From NCBI GenBank assembly GCA_009380095.1, contig WHSL01000033.1, positions 1 to 37,944 on the forward strand: a DNA stretch of 37,944 nt, given 5' to 3'. This DNA comes from Streptosporangiales bacterium. GTDB lineage: Bacteria > Actinomycetota > Actinomycetes > Streptosporangiales > Streptosporangiaceae. Below, piece after piece: positions 1 to 36,651 of this stretch. The notes below the pieces were generated by a model. The model searched no databases, was not told the DNA's origin, and saw nothing but the letters and a program-made list of their open reading frames with translations. A program made the position numbers and the translations under genes. Each line of letters starts with the position of its first letter. Within the stretch, counting starts at the first letter, position 1.

Positions 1-762
1 CGGGTTCCGGTCGTCCAGGTCCCCGCCGGAGGCGTCGCCACTGGGGTTGCCGGAGCCGGGACCGACGTTGTTCGACGGCTCGTCGTCGGGCGTGCCGTCC
101 TGGTCGCGGTCGGGCTCACCCCAGACGTGGGACTGATCGCCGTCGGACCCGTCGTCGGGCATCCCGTCCTCGTTGAACATGTGCGTCCCCGAGGTGCTGT
201 CCGGAATGTCCTCGTACCCGGGCGCGTCGTCCAGGTCGCCACCGGAGGAGTCGCCATCGGGGTTACCGGAGCCGGGACCGACGTTGTTGGACGGCCAGTC
301 GTCATCCCACCCGTCACGGTCACGGTCCGGGTCACCGGGATCGGCGACCCACGGCCGGGCATCGTCCAGGTCCCCGCCCGAGGCGTCGCCCCCAGGGTTG
401 CCGGAACCGGGACCGACGTTGTTGGACTGCCACGTGTCCTCGATGCCGTCGCCGTCGGCGTCGGTCCCGCCCGGGTCGACCGCGCCGGGCCGCTCGTCGT
501 CGAGGTCGCCGCCGGTGACGTCCTGGTCCGGGTTGCCGGAGCCGGGCCCGTAGTTGTTGGTCTGCTCGGTGTCCTTGATGCCGTCGCCGTCGGCGTCCCA
601 CTCGACCGGGCCGGGCCTCTCCGGGAAGTCCGGCAGCGGGTCGCCCGGCTCCAGGGCCGGCGCGTCGTCGAGGTCGCCGCCCGAGGTGTCGCCGGTCGGG
701 TTGCCCGATCCGGGGCCGTAGTTCGTGGTGTTGCCGTAGTCGTCATCGGCGACGCCGTCGCC
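1..762 (-). repeat. About 45-residue repeats with DxDxDG calcium loops and GPGSGNP
   Basis: Inside the preceding gene, five copies of a unit pair an Asp-rich loop (DRDGDGVADDD, DADGDGIKD, DADGDGIED, DRDRDGWDD, DRDQDGTPD) with N-N-x-GPGSGNP and then SGGDLDD or TGGDLDD. The GPGSGNP motifs start at 717, 549, 414, 279 and 63, so spacings are 56, 45, 45 and 72 residues. The loops resemble thrombospondin type-3 or dockerin calcium sites; calcium binding is inferred. The array continues past the left edge. Confidence 0.85.
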
Positions 763-3700
763 GTCGCGGTCGTTCGGCATTCCGTGCGTGTACGGCCGCC
801 ACTCCCCGCTCTCCGGGTCCCGGTAGTAGCTGCCGAGCAGCCGGCGGGTCTCGTGGCTCTCGCCGCCCTCGACACCCACGCACAGCACGACGCAGCCCTC
901 GAGCCCCGGCGTGACGTCCTTGGGGGTGTCCCGGCTGTACTCGCCACGGGTGCGGAGCCCCTCGTCCAGATACCGTCCCCACTCCCGGGTCGCGTCGTCC
1001 AGCGCCACCTTGGCCTGGGCGAAGCCCTGCGGGTCCGCGGCGTCCCCGGCCTGGGCCCCGCCCGCGCTGCGATAGTTGAACTCGACCGCGTCGTACGCCC
1101 GCTGCGCCTCCTGCCAGCGCTGCAGCGCCTCCATCGCCCCGGGCCGGTTGAGGTCCACCTCGGTACGGATGGTCGTCACGCCGTCGTCCGTGGCGAGGTC
1201 GTCGCCGCCGGTGCCCTTGGCCTTGCGGCCGATCAGGGTCGCGCTCCAGCCGCCCTTCCAGTCCTGCTCCTTGAGCTGCACGTACCTGACCGGCTTGCCG
1301 TCCTCGTAGATCAGCTGGCCGGACCTGGTGCCGGTGCTCTCGTACGTGACCTTGCCCTCGGGGCCGACGCCCTTGACGCTGAAGCCCAGCTTGGCCTCGC
1401 GGTCCACCCCGCTGGTGGAGACCGTGTCGGTCTCGATCCGTACGTCGTCGGAGGGGTCCACGGTGCCCTGGTCGTTGACCGTGACGGACCTGCCGGCCTC
1501 GTGGTTTCCGCCGATCTTGCCGCCGGCCACGATGAGGTCGCCGCCCAGGCCGCCCTCCTCGCGCTTGGACGAGCCGTCGGTGGAGATCTTGGGGACGGTC
1601 AGCTCGTGCCGGATGTCCTCGGCGATGGCGTCCGCCCGCTCGTCGACGCGGTCCAGCCGCTCCTGCATCTCCCGGGCCGCCGCGCTCTCGTCGCCGGCGT
1701 CCACCGGCGCGCCGGCCATCTCCTCGTCGAAGATCCGCTTCCGTGTCTCGTCGACGCGCGCCGTGTAGTCGCGGTACTGCTGCTCGTTGTCGAAGAGCAG
1801 CGCCTCCGACCTGTCGTCCTTCCAGGAGACGGTGAGGTCGGCGCCGCCCTGGAGCCTGCCGATCCCGCCCTTGATCTCGAACGGGACGCCGTTGCTCCTG
1901 CTCTCGCCGGTGGTCTCCAGTACGGAGCCGTCCGCCCGGCGCTGCACGATCGTGGTCTGCTTGTCCTCGCGCTTCCAGACCAGCAGCTTCACGGACCCGC
2001 TCGACTCGTCGCTCTGGTAGTCGCGCGCGTAGGGCGGGATCCTGTCGAGGCCTTCGGGCCACTCGCCCTCCGGCGCGGCCGGGTCGCCCGCGGCGGGGTC
2101 GTCGGGGGCGGGGTCGTCGGGGGCGGGGTCGTCGGGTGGGACGTTGTGCGCGAGCACGGGGGCCGCGTCGGCCGTGTCGCCGCCCGCGTAGAAGGTGTGG
2201 ATGCCGGACACCGAGAGGGAGTGCACGGTCGAGCCCGCGGGGGCGGCCCGTGCGACGCGGGTGATGGGGGTCGGGACGCGGGAGGTGATGGCCTCGTCAC
2301 CCTTCTCGATCATGGAGAGCGGGCCGGCCGGTACGGCGAGGCTGCCGCCCTTCCGCAGGTCGGCCGCCTTCACCCAGCGGCGGGCTATGGGGTCGTACAG
2401 CCGCTGGTCGCCGGCGACGGTGAGCTCGTCGCCGCCGCGGATGACGATCTCCACGAGGGGCTTGCGGCTGACCCGCTCGGAGGTCGAGGTGACCTTGCGC
2501 GGCAGCGTGACGCCCGAGGTCGGGTCCGTCGCGATCACGACGTCGCCCTTGCGGATCCGGGCGAGCGGCTTCTTCTGCCCACCGGCCAGGGTCACCGGGG
2601 TGGTCCCGGCCATCCCCTCGCCGCCGCCCCGGGCCATCCGCATCGGCTGTGGGGCCGCCGAGCCGGCGGCCTCATCGCCCTTCCCGGACGCGGCGCCATC
2701 TCCCGCCGCAGAGCCCTTCCCGGACGCGGCGCCATCGCTCGCCGCAGAGCCCTCACCGGACGCGGCGCCATCGCGAGAGGCAGAGCCACCGTCGGACGCC
2801 GCGTCATCGGCGGACGCGTCATCGGCGGACGCGGACTCACCGTCGGACGCGGACTCATTGTCGGACGCGGAGCCACCGGCGCCGTCGCCCGCGCCAGAGG
2901 CGTCGCTCGCGCCTGAGGAGGAGTCGAACGCGTCCGAGGGGTCGGTCATGTCGGCGGATTGGCCGGCCGGGATGTCTTCGGGGAAGTAGGTGAGGTAGGC
3001 GTCGACCTTGTCCGCGGCGGGGAGCAGCCCGGCTCGGACGGTGTCGCCCCCGTCGGGGGCGTGGATGACGCGCCCGCCGCCGGCGTACACGCCGATGTGC
3101 CCGCCGCCCGCCAGCACGAGGTCCCCGGGCCTCAGCTCGTCCCGCGAGATCGGCCGTCCGAGCTCCCGCTGCGCCTCCAGACCGGCCGGAATCTGTATCC
3201 CGGCCCGCGCCAGCGCCAGCCTCGTCAGCTCCGTACAGTCGCAGGCGTCCTCGGCGGACGACCACGGGTAGGTCTGTCCCAGCTGGGCGACGGCGTACGC
3301 GACGACCTGCTTTCGCAGGGCCTTCATCGTCGGCTCGCGCCGCTCGGCCGCACGTTCGGCGGCGGCGCGTTCACGGGCCTGCTCGGCGCGGCGTTCCGCG
3401 GCGGCCTCGTCGGCGCGCTTCTCCGCCGCCCGCTTCGCGGCGGCCTTCTTCGCCGCCGCCTTCTTCTCAGCCGCCTTCTTCTCAGCGGCCCGCTTCGCGG
3501 CGTCGTACTCCGCCGACGCGGACGGCGTCCGTACGGTGAGCCCGCGCAGCGCGCGCAGCTGCGCCGCGAGCCGCTTCTCCTCGGCGTCCAGCCGGTTCGC
3601 CCCGCGTTCCAGCGTTGCGGCCGTCCGCTCGATCCCGGCGGTGTCCGTCTTGATGCCCGCCTGCCGCGCGGCGGTGGCGAACCGGCGCAGCTCGGTCAGC

Positions 3701-4062
3701 TCGCGTACGAGGGCGGAACGCTCGGTCCGCACCCGGCTCACCGCGGCGATGACCCGCGCGACCAGCGCGGCCCGCGGGCCCATGGCCTCCGGCACGCCGG
3801 GTGTGGTGGGAGCGCCGCTGCCGGCCGCCGCGTAGGCGACGGCGGCCTCGGCCGGAGAGGTCAGGGCGACGGTCGTGGCGAGGCCGACCCCGACGACGCC
3901 GGCCGTACGCAGGGCGCGCCGTCCGGAACGGAGTGGGCGGGGCGGGGAGCCGGGTTCACCGGCTCCCGGTGCACGGCGGAGGCCGAACGCGCGGCCCGCC
4001 TCGAGCGCGCGGTGGATCCAGTGGCGAAGGGGGGACGCGGAGTGGGGCTGTGGCGATGTCAC
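1..4062 (-). CDS. Secreted NlpC/P60 - degenerate Hint - calcium-repeat protein (3' end off window)
   Basis: At least 1354 residues; the frame is open from 4062 to the left edge. The GTG at 4062 is chosen because GTGAGG lies six bases upstream. Residues about 50-74 form an Arg-Arg-preceded hydrophobic signal peptide ending in AEAA. About 135-250 is an Ala/Lys/Glu-rich coiled coil. About 255-355 is an NlpC/P60 cysteine peptidase: Cys276 in DCTEL, His322 in HIGVY and His334 in VIHAP, so it should cleave peptidoglycan stem peptides outside the cell. An Ala/Ser/Asp linker (about 368-475) follows. About 485-640 has the Hint fold pattern (GTTPVTL, GDVVIATDP, AADLRKG, final VLAHN) but no nucleophilic Cys and no block-B His. 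About 650-1095 is of unknown function. From about 1115 a repeated Asp-rich unit begins. The peptidase is certain, the dead Hint likely; the real C-terminus is not visible. Confidence 0.9.
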   Translation of the reverse strand, partial: MTSPQPHSASPLRHWIHRALEAGRAFGLRRAPGAGEPGSPPRPLRSGRRALRTAGVVGVGLATTVALTSPAEAAVAYAAAGSGAPTTPGVPEAMGPRAALVARVIAAVSRVRTERSALVRELTELRRFATAARQAGIKTDTAGIERTAATLERGANRLDAEEKRLAAQLRALRGLTVRTPSASAEYDAAKRAAEKKAAEKKAAAKKAAAKRAAEKRADEAAAERRAEQARERAAAERAAERREPTMKALRKQVVAYAVAQLGQTYPWSSAEDACDCTELTRLALARAGIQIPAGLEAQRELGRPISRDELRPGDLVLAGGGHIGVYAGGGRVIHAPDGGDTVRAGLLPAADKVDAYLTYFPEDIPAGQSADMTDPSDAFDSSSGASDASGAGDGAGGSASDNESASDGESASADDASADDAASDGGSASRDGAASGEGSAASDGAASGKGSAAGDGAASGKGDEAAGSAAPQPMRMARGGGEGMAGTTPVTLAGGQKKPLARIRKGDVVIATDPTSGVTLPRKVTSTSERVSRKPLVEIVIRGGDELTVAGDQRLYDPIARRWVKAADLRKGGSLAVPAGPLSMIEKGDEAITSRVPTPITRVARAAPAGSTVHSLSVSGIHTFYAGGDTADAAPVLAHNVPPDDPAPDDPAPDDPAAGDPAAPEGEWPEGLDRIPPYARDYQSDESSGSVKLLVWKREDKQTTIVQRRADGSVLETTGESRSNGVPFEIKGGIGRLQGGADLTVSWKDDRSEALLFDNEQQYRDYTARVDETRKRIFDEEMAGAPVDAGDESAAAREMQERLDRVDERADAIAEDIRHELTVPKISTDGSSKREEGGLGGDLIVAGGKIGGNHEAGRSVTVNDQGTVDPSDDVRIETDTVSTSGVDREAKLGFSVKGVGPEGKVTYESTGTRSGQLIYEDGKPVRYVQLKEQDWKGGWSATLIGRKAKGTGGDDLATDDGVTTIRTEVDLNRPGAMEALQRWQEAQRAYDAVEFNYRSAGGAQAGDAADPQGFAQAKVALDDATREWGRYLDEGLRTRGEYSRDTPKDVTPGLEGCVVLCVGVEGGESHETRRLLGSYYRDPESGEWRPYTHGMPNDRDGDGVADDDYGNTTNYGPGSGNPTGDTSGGDLDDAPALEPGDPLPDFPERPGPVEWDADGDGIKDTEQTNNYGPGSGNPDQDVTGGDLDDERPGAVDPGGTDADGDGIEDTWQSNNVGPGSGNPGGDASGGDLDDARPWVADPGDPDRDRDGWDDDWPSNNVGPGSGNPDGDSSGGDLDDAPGYEDIPDSTSGTHMFNEDGMPDDGSDGDQSHVWGEPDRDQDGTPDDEPSNNVGPGSGNPSGDASGGDLDDRNP

Positions 4063-4370
4063 GTGGAACCTCACGAGGCACGACGGGAAGGAGGACAACG
4101 TGGTGGGTGAAGGGCCCCGTCGGCGGACACACGTCGACGCCACGCGGATGCCGTACCCGAACGCCGCCGCGACCAGGTCGAACGGCCTGCGTTCCATCGC
4201 CCCCGAGCGCCCCGCCAGGCTCCGCGGCTCCAGCGGGCCACCGAAGGTGGTACCCCAGAGTTACCACACAGCGCCCCACGCGAAAAGGCCCAAGCCGGGC
4301 GTCCCGACGGGCTGAAGCGCCCTCCGGGAAGCGCGCCGAAGGCGACCGCGGAGGGCGCGGGGGGCGGGTC
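4063..4370. other. Intergenic region, SDR gene to NlpC gene
   Basis: 308 bases with no gene I support. It should hold the NlpC promoter and 5' leader on the minus strand. An inverted repeat GTGGTA ... TACCAC (4247-4252 and 4262-4267) could be an operator or the base of a leader hairpin. The NlpC frame stays open upstream to an ATG at 4197, but codon use there does not look coding. A terminator hairpin for the SDR gene occupies 4317-4358. Confidence 0.5.
4317..4358 (-). terminator. Hairpin downstream of the SDR gene
   Basis: A perfect 10-bp stem, GCGCCCTCCG (4317-4326) with CGGAGGGCGC (4349-4358), and a 22-base loop, begins 12 bases after the SDR stop codon. There is no U-tract, which is common for actinomycete terminators. 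Termination is inferred from position and shape. Confidence 0.5.
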
Positions 4371-33239: not shown

Positions 33240-33412
33240 CTCACCGCGCCGGACAGTTCGGCTTACCCCTCTATCCCGCATCTCCGGCCTGAAAGGTGTT
33301 CAACCCTATCGGCCCAGGTCGCCCGGGTTCCGGTCAAAGGTCACCACTCGGTTACGGTCGTGGAGCGGCGGGCTCCGTACGGGGCCCGGAACCAGGGGAA
33401 GGGCACGCGCGG

Positions 33413-34912
33413 ATGGAGTCCATCACAGAACCGGAGGATCTCGACATTCCGGCGATCTCCCGGATCGCCGCGGGCGCGGGGGTCACGCTCGACACGGGCC
33501 TCCGTGACCGGATGCGCACCCACCGCGCCACCGTCCTCGACGCGCTCACCTCCGGCGACACACCCGTGTACGGGGTCAACACCGGCATGGGCCGGCTCGC
33601 GCAACGCCGGCTCACCCTGGAGGAACAGGCCGGGCACCAGGCCCACCTGTTCACCGCGCGGGCCGTCGGCGGGCCGCCCTGGCTGCCCGAAGCGGACGCG
33701 CGGGCGGTGCTCGCGGTGAAGCTGCGCACCCTGGTGACTCAGGAGAGCGGTGCGAGCCCGGAACTCGCCGAATACGTGGCCGCGCGGCTGGGCGACGGCT
33801 TCACGCCGGCGATCCCGCGCGAGGGCAACGGCAGTGCGGGCGAGATCATCCCGCTCTGCCACGCGTTCCAGACGTTCCTCGGCCTGGGGACCGTACTCGA
33901 GGAGGGCACCGAGGTGCCGGCGGCCGAGACCCTGGCCCGCCGGGGCGTGCCGCCGGTCCGGCTCGGCCCGAAGGAGGGCATGACGCTGCTGCAGGGCTCG
34001 CCGGTGGCCACCGCGCAGGCGATCATGCGCGGCGGCGAGGCGGGGGCCGCGCTCAGGCTCCAGGTGCACGCCGCGGCCGGTACGGTCGCCGCGCTCGGCG
34101 CTCCGCGCGGCGTCTACGACCCCCGGCTGGCCGGGCCGGACGAGGTGCTCGGGGCGATGCTCGCGGCGGTCCGAAACCTCGGTGCGGGCGGGCCGGTGCG
34201 GGAGGACGTGGTGCAGGCGCCGGTGTCCGTACGGGTCGCGCCGCAGGCGCTGGCGCACGCGGCCCGTACGGTCGACGACCTCGCCGCCGCGGCGGACCGG
34301 ACGCTCGCCGCGGTCACCGACTCCCCGGCGTTCCTGGACGGGGGGTTCGTCTCCACCGGCGCGTTCCACGCCGTCGAGCTCGGCCTGCGGATGGACGCGG
34401 TGAGCGCGGCGCTGATCCACCTCGCCGAGGGGAGCGTGCAGCGGCTGCACCGCCTGCTCGACGAGCGCTTCACCGGGCTCCCGCCGCAGCTGGCCGTCGA
34501 TCCCGGCCCGCAGGCCGGGCTGATCACCACGCACAAGCGCGCGGTGGGCGAGCTGCACGCGCTGCGCGGGCTCGCGGCCCCGGCCACGCTCGGCACGATC
34601 GACACCTCCGGCGGCCAGGAGGACCTGCAGGCCTTCGCGGGCGCGGCGGGCGAACGCCTCCGCACCGTCGTACACCGGCTGGGGACGGTCACCGCCTGCG
34701 AGCTCATCGCCGCCCACCAGGCCACCGCGCTCCGCGAAGCCGACCCCCCGCCGGCACTCCGCGACCTGTACGCGACCGTGGCCCAACACGTTCCCCTGGT
34801 CACCGAGGACCGCTCCCTCGGCCCGGAGATCGAACGCCTCGCCACCATCCTCCGCACCGCCCCTCCACAAATTGGGGGAAAGATTTTCCGGCGGGTGGGC
34901 GGCTCGGCGTGA
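33413..34912 (+). CDS. Aromatic amino acid lyase (HAL/PAL) homologue lacking the MIO triad
   Basis: 499 residues, a normal HAL length. The fold is clear: VYGVNTGMG with Tyr53 (the catalytic Tyr position of HAL), KEGMTLLQGSPVATA, PVSVRVAPQ and GGQEDLQAFAG. But the MIO prosthetic-group motif, normally GASGDL, reads GSAGEI (Ser141-Ala142-Gly143), so the central Ser that must cyclise is Ala. NGTQ reads QGSP and GNFHG reads GAFHA. It therefore should not make MIO and is not an ordinary histidine or phenylalanine ammonia-lyase. MIO-independent members are known, namely ergothionase, which eliminates trimethylamine from ergothioneine. Next to a quaternary-amine importer, a betaine-type substrate is plausible; this is inference. 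The ATG at 33413 has AGGGGAAGGG nine bases upstream. Confidence 0.88.
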   Translation: MESITEPEDLDIPAISRIAAGAGVTLDTGLRDRMRTHRATVLDALTSGDTPVYGVNTGMGRLAQRRLTLEEQAGHQAHLFTARAVGGPPWLPEADARAVLAVKLRTLVTQESGASPELAEYVAARLGDGFTPAIPREGNGSAGEIIPLCHAFQTFLGLGTVLEEGTEVPAAETLARRGVPPVRLGPKEGMTLLQGSPVATAQAIMRGGEAGAALRLQVHAAAGTVAALGAPRGVYDPRLAGPDEVLGAMLAAVRNLGAGGPVREDVVQAPVSVRVAPQALAHAARTVDDLAAAADRTLAAVTDSPAFLDGGFVSTGAFHAVELGLRMDAVSAALIHLAEGSVQRLHRLLDERFTGLPPQLAVDPGPQAGLITTHKRAVGELHALRGLAAPATLGTIDTSGGQEDLQAFAGAAGERLRTVVHRLGTVTACELIAAHQATALREADPPPALRDLYATVAQHVPLVTEDRSLGPEIERLATILRTAPPQIGGKIFRRVGGSA

Positions 34913-35345
34913 GGGGTCGTCTACCTGCTGGGATGGGCGTTGACCTGGGGTTTCTGGTGCGTGCGCGGGCTGGTTGGTCGTTGGTGTGTCCGGCTGGTGG
35001 CGGCCAGTGGTGGGGGTTGCCGGCTGGTCGTGGGCCAGTGGCGGGCCGGTTCGGCGGGGTTTGCCTTGGTGGCTCGGTGTTGGCTGCGGTTCGGGCGGTT
35101 GCCGGGTTCGGCGCTGTGTTCTGAGCTGTGCGTGCGGGACTCGCGTGGCCCTGGTCGCTGCGCCCACCCTTTTTCTCCCAACCCCGATGAAACCTGCACT
35201 TAGCGGCGTCCGGGTTCTGTCAAGGGTGGCCGTAGGCCAGCACGGAGTGCCGCGTAGCGCCCTTGACGGGTTCCGGGCGTCGCCACCCTCCCTCAATCGG
35301 GGTTTGGGGAACCCCGGCAGTTTCCAGTTCAGCTGTTGACAGGTC
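34913..35345. other. Non-coding region after the HAL-like gene
   Basis: 433 bases with no gene I support; short frames here have no coding character. The first part is T/G-rich (TGGTGG-type strings). It holds the cloverleaf element at 35219-35267 and a hairpin GGGGTT ... AACCCC at 35299-35304 and 35310-35315. The visible shift from the compact GC-rich genes suggests the edge of an accessory segment. Confidence 0.6.
35219..35267. repeat. Cloverleaf-like inverted-repeat element with three C(GNA)G triloop arms
   Basis: An 8-bp closing stem, GTCAAGGG (35219-35226) with CCCTTGAC (35260-35267), encloses three consecutive small hairpins: GGCC-GTA-GGCC (35228-35238), GCAC-GGA-GTGC (35240-35250) and CGC-GTA-GCG (35251-35259). 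Only two bases are left unpaired between the arms. All three loops are GNA triplets closed by C-G, a loop class known to be unusually stable in DNA. Function unknown. Confidence 0.8.
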
Positions 35346-35600
35346 TCAGCCGACGTGGATGCCGTCGAGCATCTTGGTGGGCATCTCGCAGGCGGTGAGC
35401 AGGGCTGCCAGTTCGTCACGTTCGGCGGTGGTAATGCTGGCGTGGTCCTCGCGGAGGACGTGAAGGAGAAGGTCGAGAAGTTCACCGGTTTCCCCGCCGC
35501 GCGCGATGGTGTGGAGGTGTTTGGCGGTCGCGGGGTCCACGCGGTCGGCGAAGCGTTCGGGTAGTTCGGCCGTGAGCCGGGCCATGGTGTTCAGGTCCAT
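35346..35600 (-). CDS. Small protein, presumed immunity protein of the EndoU toxin
   Basis: 84 residues: begins MDLNTMARLTAELPERFADR, then EAL-type helices with GGETGELLDLLLHVLRE, and ends KMLDGIHVG. It is acidic, probably all alpha-helical, with no signal or membrane segment. Its ATG overlaps the stop of the EndoU gene (TAATG), so it is co-translated with the toxin. Small acidic helical proteins in this position are commonly the cognate immunity proteins of EndoU and related toxins in actinomycetes. Assignment is from position and general appearance, not a recognised domain. Confidence 0.7.
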   Translation of the reverse strand: MDLNTMARLTAELPERFADRVDPATAKHLHTIARGGETGELLDLLLHVLREDHASITTAERDELAALLTACEMPTKMLDGIHVG

Positions 35601-36130
35601 TAGGCGGTGTCCTCCGGATTGGCGATGACTCCTCGGCCGCCGGGCTCGGGCCAGGCTGCCCATATCTTGCCCTCGGGCCAGACGATGACAACGACGGTGA
35701 CACCGTCGTGGGTCCCTTGGCACTCCCATCGGCGGTTGCGCTGCTGTTCTGGCGGGCTGTCGGGGTTGCGGGCCACGTGTTCGATGTAGGCGCAAGTCGT
35801 GTCGTCGTCCCAGTCGGGGGGGAACTCGGTCTTGCCCGGCTTCTCGGTGCCGTGGCGATGGCCTCCGCCCTTCCCGGTTGGGCCGCCGTCGAGAATGTGT
35901 GAGCGCCGGTCGGGCTCTAGATGGATGGTTTCGGGGTCGGGCCGGTCCGGGTTACCGACTACGCCGGGGGCATCCCAACCGCTGTACGTCTTGGCTGTTT
36001 CGGACTGCGCGGGCTCGTCTGGCGACTCGATCTGAGACCACGGCACCCACGCACGATCGTCGGAGTGCTGGCGGCTGGTCTGATCGGCGGGGTGGCTGAC
36101 CTCTGGCCGTTCGTGGGGGCGGTCGGTCAC
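35600..36130 (-). CDS. EndoU-family nuclease, polymorphic-toxin type
   Basis: About 176 residues from the GTG at 36130. The C-terminal half has the bacterial EndoU pattern: RRSHILDGG (His near residue 78), GGGHRHG (His 91), GKTEFPPDWDDD (Lys 100), then IEHVARNPDSPP and a final VTVVVIVWPEGKIWAAWP. EndoU toxins cut RNA and are usually the C-terminal tip of large secreted contact-dependent toxins. Here no secretion or delivery domain is attached; the N-terminal 70 residues are polar and unrecognised. No in-frame Met exists and no Shine-Dalgarno is clear, so the start is uncertain and a displaced toxin tip is possible. It overlaps the presumed immunity gene by TAATG. Confidence 0.7.
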   Translation of the reverse strand: MTDRPHERPEVSHPADQTSRQHSDDRAWVPWSQIESPDEPAQSETAKTYSGWDAPGVVGNPDRPDPETIHLEPDRRSHILDGGPTGKGGGHRHGTEKPGKTEFPPDWDDDTTCAYIEHVARNPDSPPEQQRNRRWECQGTHDGVTVVVIVWPEGKIWAAWPEPGGRGVIANPEDTA

Positions 36131-36651
36131 CCCGTGAGGGTAGAGGCCGGTGGGCTTGTCAGGGGCGATGGTCGGGGCCTTTCCGGCTGCTGGTTCGTAT
36201 GGCGGTTGGTGGGCGCGGGGCGGTGACCTGAGCCGGTGAGGTCGCGGTGGTGGCGCGCGTGCGGGAGGGCGGCCGGCGCCGCGGGCGCGAACGGCCGAAG
36301 GCCGCATACGCAAGCCCGTGCGGTGCCGGTCCGCCCCGGCCCCGGCATGCGCAGCCGCCGGAGGCGGCCCGCCCCGCGCCGGCGCGCGAAGCGCGCCCAT
36401 CCCCCCGGCCCGGTCCGACCTGCTGCCCTTGGAATGCCAAGACGGGCGCCGGTGGCGGGTCCGGGCCACGTAGCGGCCCGGCTTGACCTTCTAGGGAAAT
36501 TCGAACACACACGTCCTCACGTGTCGGGCCCGCGCGAAAGTGTGGCTGCTACTGGGTGAGCTTGCGGCGTCGGGCTTTTCGGCGGCGGATGGTGCTGCGG
36601 TGACAGTTTTGGTGCTGCGGTTGGGATCGCGAGCAGGGGTGGCGGGCTCGG
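36131..36651. other. Non-coding, hairpin-rich region upstream of the EndoU gene
   Basis: 521 bases; open frames here are Arg/Pro/Ala-rich and look like artefacts of G+C. Hairpins seen: CGGCC-GAA-GGCCG (36292-36304), GGCGCGC-GAA-GCGCGCC (36381-36397), CGGGCCAC-GTA-GCGGCCCG with one mismatch (36462-36480), CTTGG ... CCAAG (around 36429-36442) and ACACGT ... ACGTGT near 36512. No promoter could be assigned. Confidence 0.6.

Follow-up and report, generated by a model that had tools for sequence, protein, structure and literature searches.

A cloverleaf DNA element capped by C(GNA)G minihairpins in bacterial plasmids, filamentous phages and chromosomes: a probable single-stranded DNA promoter or second-strand origin

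The window, by which we mean the entire 37,944-nucleotide stretch of Streptosporangiales DNA analyzed here, contains a 49-base segment for which a cloverleaf had been proposed from the letters alone, and its location between the 3′ ends of convergent genes (a lyase-like gene on the + strand and an 85-aa gene on the − strand) raises the question of what such a fold would do there. The original prediction described an 8-bp closing stem holding three hairpins with C(GNA)G triloops and two unpaired bases. When the segment was folded as single-stranded DNA (ssDNA), this same shape was the minimum-free-energy structure (−15.6 kcal/mol, 63% of the ensemble), although the two unpaired bases proved unnecessary, as every base outside the loops pairs (8+13+11+9+8=49). 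The claim that the shape is unlikely by chance held up: its z-score was −3.98, none of 200 shuffles equaled it, and a pattern made of the closing-stem halves matched three sites in the genome and none in the reversed control. The palindrome also extends beyond the reported core, with outer arms and a second outer stem (CCCCGAT/ATCGGGG) that together surround an unpaired bubble (Table 1).

Table 1. Coordinates of the cloverleaf element and its surroundings in the window
Feature	Position	Strand	Basis
Aromatic amino-acid lyase-like gene, 3′ end facing the element	33296..34912	+	ORF; identity by eye
Repeat common to two more copies on contig C233, from CAAATTGGGGG through the cloverleaf	34868..35320	+	Sequence comparison
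Outermost stem CCCCGAT, 5′ side	35182..35188	+	Inverted repeat; DNA fold; similar outer stem in plasmid elements L360 and L364
Outer arm, 5′ side	35203..35218	+	Inverted repeat; DNA fold
Cloverleaf core, GNA strand	35219..35267	+	DNA fold; family alignment; covariation
Closing stem 5′ half GTCAAGGG	35219..35226	+	DNA fold; family alignment; compensatory variants in relatives
Hairpin 1 TGGCC-GTA-GGCCA, loop GTA	35227..35239	+	DNA fold; helix 2 in covariation test
Hairpin 2 GCAC-GGA-GTGC, loop GGA	35240..35250	+	DNA fold; helix 3 in covariation test
Hairpin 3 CGC-GTA-GCG, loop GTA	35251..35259	+	DNA fold; helix 4 in covariation test
Closing stem 3′ half CCCTTGAC	35260..35267	+	DNA fold; family alignment; compensatory variants
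−35-like box TTGACG within closing stem	35263..35268	+	Sequence; family statistics
Outer arm, 3′ side (−35/−10 spacer)	35268..35283	+	Inverted repeat; DNA fold
−10-like box CACCCT, spacer 15, in unpaired bubble	35284..35289	+	Family statistics; DNA fold
Outermost stem ATCGGGG, 3′ side	35296..35302	+	Inverted repeat; DNA fold
85-aa gene, putative EndoU-toxin immunity protein, 3′ end facing the element	35346..35603	−	ORF
EndoU_bacteria domain (PF14436) gene	35600..36136	−	Pfam, E=1.7e-9

The 49-base cloverleaf belongs to a family of folding DNA elements with copies dispersed among bacterial plasmids, filamentous phages and chromosomes. What unites the family is the closing stem GTCAAGGG/CCCTTGAC, usually with three C(GNA)G hairpins, and its members occur on chromosomes and plasmids of actinomycetes as well as in Clostridia, Myxococcales, Dyadobacter and inoviruses. 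Scanning GTDB genomes yielded at least 117 stretches, mostly from actinomycetes but also from Clostridia, Myxococcales, Dyadobacter and others, some of them chance matches, and a class-level search found the loose stem pattern in 40 of 198 genomes, including some matches that are not cloverleafs. One Streptomyces genome has ∼25 copies and one Myxococcales genome (G204) has 36 matches, while BLAST with the 49-nt core identified 47 plasmids. The Myxococcales matches (L274–L293) form a lineage-specific repeat family with an additional GGAGCATGC-CT-GCATGCTCC hairpin on the 5′ side and GGCGGAGGCTA at the 3′ edge. Some matches were set aside: four from Alphaproteobacteria (L066, L071, L128 and L136) are probably coincidental, the homologous plasmid region being annotated as a lytic transglycosylase CDS, and three others (L148, L263 and L272) are divergent or ordinary phage promoters with TTGAC −35 boxes rather than cloverleafs. 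The core GTCAAGGG/CCCTTGAC shows no resemblance by eye to integron attC sites, and literature searches on the element sequence, cloverleafs, MITE-type repeats and 13E12 returned nothing relevant.

The original prediction had proposed looking in this and related genomes for the same layout with covarying stems, and this is what was found. Among 22 distinct cores of the same layout, 98.7% of cells were paired (just 24–46% in slid alignments), and 37 cells carried double-sided changes as compared to 9.6 in shuffles. Covariation scored 0.240 versus 0.066 when shuffled, a value matched by 0 of 500 shuffles. The invariance of the closing stem is partly imposed by the search pattern, but plasmid relatives found by BLAST carry the compensatory closing stems GTCCAGGG/CCCTGGAC and GTCAAGAA/TTCTTGAC, the reverse of the uncompensated stems that would have counted against the prediction. 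Within the same genome, a third cloverleaf (contig C402) differs in the sequence of all three stems yet keeps the pairing and the C(GNA)G loops.

Which strand folds can be stated plainly. It is the strand carrying the GNA loops, because, with DNA parameters, it folds more stably than the complementary strand in 62 of the 67 unrelated elements and because its arm mismatches are G·A rather than C·T (121 vs 31) and G·G rather than C·C (88 vs 25). Sheared-pair GNA/GNA motifs in DNA would be expected to give such mismatches, and internal mismatches of the GGA/GGA type lie on this same strand. The GCGAAGC minihairpin has been generalized to d(C-GNA-G). The three hairpins have the same loop and closing pair as such minihairpins, of which GCGAAGC is an example (PMC4686876), but here three of them serve as arms of one element.

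Whether the fold belongs to ssDNA or to a structured RNA had been left as alternatives. The covarying and compensatory stems, the C(GNA)G triloops, the same-strand GGA/GGA mismatches and the presence in ssDNA replicons (below) all favor the former. Triloops formed in 110 of 177 cases with DNA parameters as compared to 74 of 177 with RNA parameters, a 69-nt stretch of the window folded as RNA retained the closing stem but lost the cloverleaf, and no Rfam family matched at gathering score. A structured RNA or bidirectional terminator would suit the convergent genes around the window copy, and convergence is the most frequent arrangement in the family, but there is no U run and the promoter signature described next would be left unexplained, so we consider this reading very improbable.

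The original prediction missed that the closing stem contains a −35 box (TTGACN). A −10-like nAnnnT begins 17–19 nt 3′ of CCCTTGAC in 41 of 67 elements with mutually unrelated arms, where ∼3.5 would be expected from other offsets, and on the opposite side in 3 of 67. This places nAnnnT 15–17 nt beyond TTGACN, in the unpaired bubble at the hairpin foot; across the 67 elements, pairing drops to chance exactly at this position and recovers further out. The p-value for the 67 elements is post hoc, since the signal was first noticed in overlapping data, but among plasmid elements fetched after the idea was formed, 9 of 15 had nAnnnT (p=1.1e-8). The −35 box is fixed by the search pattern, and it is the −10 and the structure that are free to vary. 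Examples in the family are TTGACG-16-TACAAT, TTGACC-16-TAAACT, TTGACT-16-GACAAT and TTGACG-16-CACACT, and in the window copy the sequence is TTGACG-15-CACCCT. In the Myxococcales copies (G204), the −10 is poor. Instead of nAnnnT, Dyadobacter copies have TTG-N19 followed by TAGCTTTG, TACCTTTG or TATCTTTG, of the form TAnnTTTG, which is the Bacteroidota promoter box; these copies thus appear to match their host's own promoter type. By fold and sequence statistics, a single strand here forms a stem-loop that rebuilds −35 and −10 at promoter spacing, as an Frpo-type promoter does.

Because the folding strand, the −35 in the stem, the −10 in the bubble and the residence in ssDNA replicons make up the combination seen in Frpo, sso and filamentous-phage minus-strand origins, we think that the element is probably an ssDNA promoter or second-strand origin of the Frpo/sso kind, read by host RNA polymerase. 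Polymerase binding, priming and direction of use are what we infer from this architecture. Once single-stranded, the GNA strand (+ in the window) would fold, capped by its three C(GNA)G minihairpins; the −35 box (TTGACN) would become double-stranded within the closing stem, the spacer would consist of the paired outer arms, and the −10 would lie in the already open bubble at the foot. Host housekeeping RNA polymerase would then bind the hairpin with the strand on the 5′ side as its template, and the resulting RNA would prime second-strand synthesis and transcribe genes where these are present on the 5′ side. Mobile elements with a single-stranded stage would be the carriers of such a sequence.

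The replicons that carry the element are consistent with this. In all three inoviruses (3 of 3), the GNA loops are on the coding, virion-sense strand. The minus-strand origin of M13 is likewise a virion-strand hairpin, recognized by sigma70 RNA polymerase, but the element differs from it in its cloverleaf layout and core sequence and in not being conserved among the related inoviruses examined: relatives of inovirus L244 beyond L259 lack the exact motif. On a 1579-bp Curtobacterium plasmid (L354), the element lies just downstream of rep and on the rep strand, and the Rep looks, by eye, like a rolling-circle protein. As would be expected of an sso, the element is thus on the strand that becomes single in the three inoviruses and, taking the Rep type judged by eye, in the Curtobacterium plasmid. 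The position after rep is shared with the sso of rolling-circle plasmids and ICEBs1 (PMC4595007), as are the several stem-loops and, by prediction here, the orientation specificity, the appearance only in ssDNA and the priming by RNA polymerase or primase. However, no known sso class matched the element by sequence in the searches made, and the motif is absent from the known rolling-circle plasmid pIJ101, whose sti was rejected as the same element for this reason.

Conjugative plasmids present a more divided picture. On a Kocuria plasmid, the element has a VirD4-like gene on one side and the anti-restriction gene ardC on the other; ardC is on the 5′ (template) side and reads away, an arrangement that fits the placement of Frpo-type promoters in the leading region of the transferred strand, upstream of early genes. 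MOBP plasmids of actinomycetes, with the fixed order recombinase – element – small gene – oriT-like repeat – mobC – relaxase, appear to have the opposite arrangement, the oriT being assigned from the repeat. Relaxase genes usually enter the recipient last, and by this rule and the oriT-like repeat, the transferred strand seems to be opposite to the GNA strand. The unrelated actinomycete plasmids L355, L357, L360, L362–L364 and L366 conserve the block VbhA/Fic – recombinase – element – small gene – mobC – relaxase; an inverted repeat and the oriT-like motif AGCAAGCTATA accompany it. Clostridial conjugative elements have the cloverleaf near VirD4-like genes. As compared to the Frpo/ssi promoters of F, ColIb-P9 and relatives (PMC9849209, PMC11541004), the element has in common an ssDNA hairpin predicted to rebuild −35 and −10 for host RNA polymerase and, in Kocuria, the adjoining anti-restriction gene. 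It differs, the comparison being one of architecture, in its three C(GNA)G minihairpins and invariant 8-bp stem, its apparent position opposite the T-strand in MOBP plasmids, its many chromosomal copies, and its span across actinomycetes, Firmicutes, Myxococcota and Bacteroidota.

Could the boxes instead belong to an ordinary double-stranded promoter lying in a palindrome (perhaps cruciform-regulated) and reading outward to the 3′ side? Their spacing is normal for one, and the 3′-side gene reads away in L349, L353, L354 and L359. Overall, though, 62 of the 3′-side genes point towards the element as compared to 35 away, and such a promoter would not explain the conserved hairpins, GNA loops, arm pairing and strand-specific mismatches; we regard it as improbable. 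Most copies do not drive a neighboring gene, because the genes flanking chromosomal copies are convergent in 28 cases and divergent in 11, and the candidate role of neighbor-gene promoter is contradicted by these orientation statistics.

On some chromosomes, the element is paired. Nearly all copies in Streptomyces NBC_00249 (G143) are in inverted pairs, 1–4 kb apart, around differing genes, with conservation that ends sharply outward and continues inward. Of the 19 close pairs counted across loci, 16 have the arrangement (−)...(+) and none is (+)...(−). One Streptomyces unit of ∼3 kb has 181-bp inverted repeats of 97% identity and is flanked by thiG and a kinase gene; in related Streptomyces the two genes are close together and the unit is absent, although variation in the intergenic sequence prevents the exact insertion junction from being placed. 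Pairs in Actinomadura (L093 and L122) bracket a DUF222-HNH gene (domain names by eye). Judging from these sequences, inverted pairs in Streptomyces and Actinomadura bracket small cargo units, and the window copy lies in such a repeat.

These observations are the basis of the main rival, in which the element is a folded-DNA recombination end, i.e., a subterminal site of a transposon-like cargo unit used by a recombinase or transposase, with the promoter boxes being secondary. The bracketing of different cargo, the sharp outer edge, the ∼3-kb unit and the DUF222-HNH gene between pairs all speak for it. However, the examined units have no common enzyme, many copies are single, the plasmids, phages and phyla involved share no enzyme, a Y1 transposase is absent from five copy-carrying genomes, and the −10 statistics would be unexplained. 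We consider it unlikely, if less so than the other alternatives. The recognition site originally suggested thus stands as folded ssDNA, but the promoter in its stem favors priming or transcription by RNA polymerase over recombination. DUF222-HNH was rejected as a general mobilizer since it is present only in some Actinomadura pairs and near contig C402. IS256 was rejected as well: cloverleafs lie directly 3′ of IS256-like transposase genes in Clostridia L064, L098 and L134, but their orientation gives no simple role. Least probable of all is a REP-like repeat spread by a RAYT/Y1 transposase; the dispersed copies with the extra hairpin in G204 are reminiscent of one, but no Y1_Tnp gene was found in this genome (G000), G143, G124, G102 or G098.

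For the preferred ssDNA promoter, inverted pairs in Streptomyces and Actinomadura would mean that either strand has a hairpin near its 3′ end that points into the cargo. It is possible, though we offer this only tentatively, that the family is a widespread and previously undescribed class of cloverleaf ssDNA promoter/origin at work in ssDNA phages and plasmids that, on chromosomes, also delimits cargo units through end elements directing RNA inward. Gene cassettes would then move or become established through ssDNA. Promoters of this type are known mainly from enterobacterial F-like plasmids; given a recognizable cloverleaf form of them in actinomycetes and several further phyla, early expression and second-strand priming on ssDNA could be looked for with a pattern search, and the element would flag many unannotated mobile cassettes on chromosomes.

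Within its own genome, the window copy is a chromosomal family member beside what appears, from domain content, to be an EndoU toxin/immunity-like cassette, although the putative immunity gene itself had no Pfam match. The cassette (35346–36136) is duplicated with ∼1.6 kb of surroundings on contig C233 and looks mobile; that contig has one 96% copy of the surrounding sequence and a second, inverted copy at the contig end. A copy on contig C17 (L019, G000:C17:1-4000, near position 150) is without ∼93 bp including the cloverleaf, with exactly the palindrome missing between CCCC and GCTAAG; it adjoins a transposase-like gene (ISAzo13-like by eye) and may reflect hairpin loss, an assembly effect or an empty site. 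The cloverleaf on contig C402 (L053, 2560–2610) has a 16-bp outer stem and lies 175 bp upstream of a DUF222-HNH gene (13E12-like by eye), the gene type also found between the Actinomadura pairs. At the other end of the window, positions 1–4197 (−) hold a very long ORF that contains an intein/Hedgehog-like stretch and, C-terminally, acidic Gly-Asp repeats (PGSGNP...GGDLDD).
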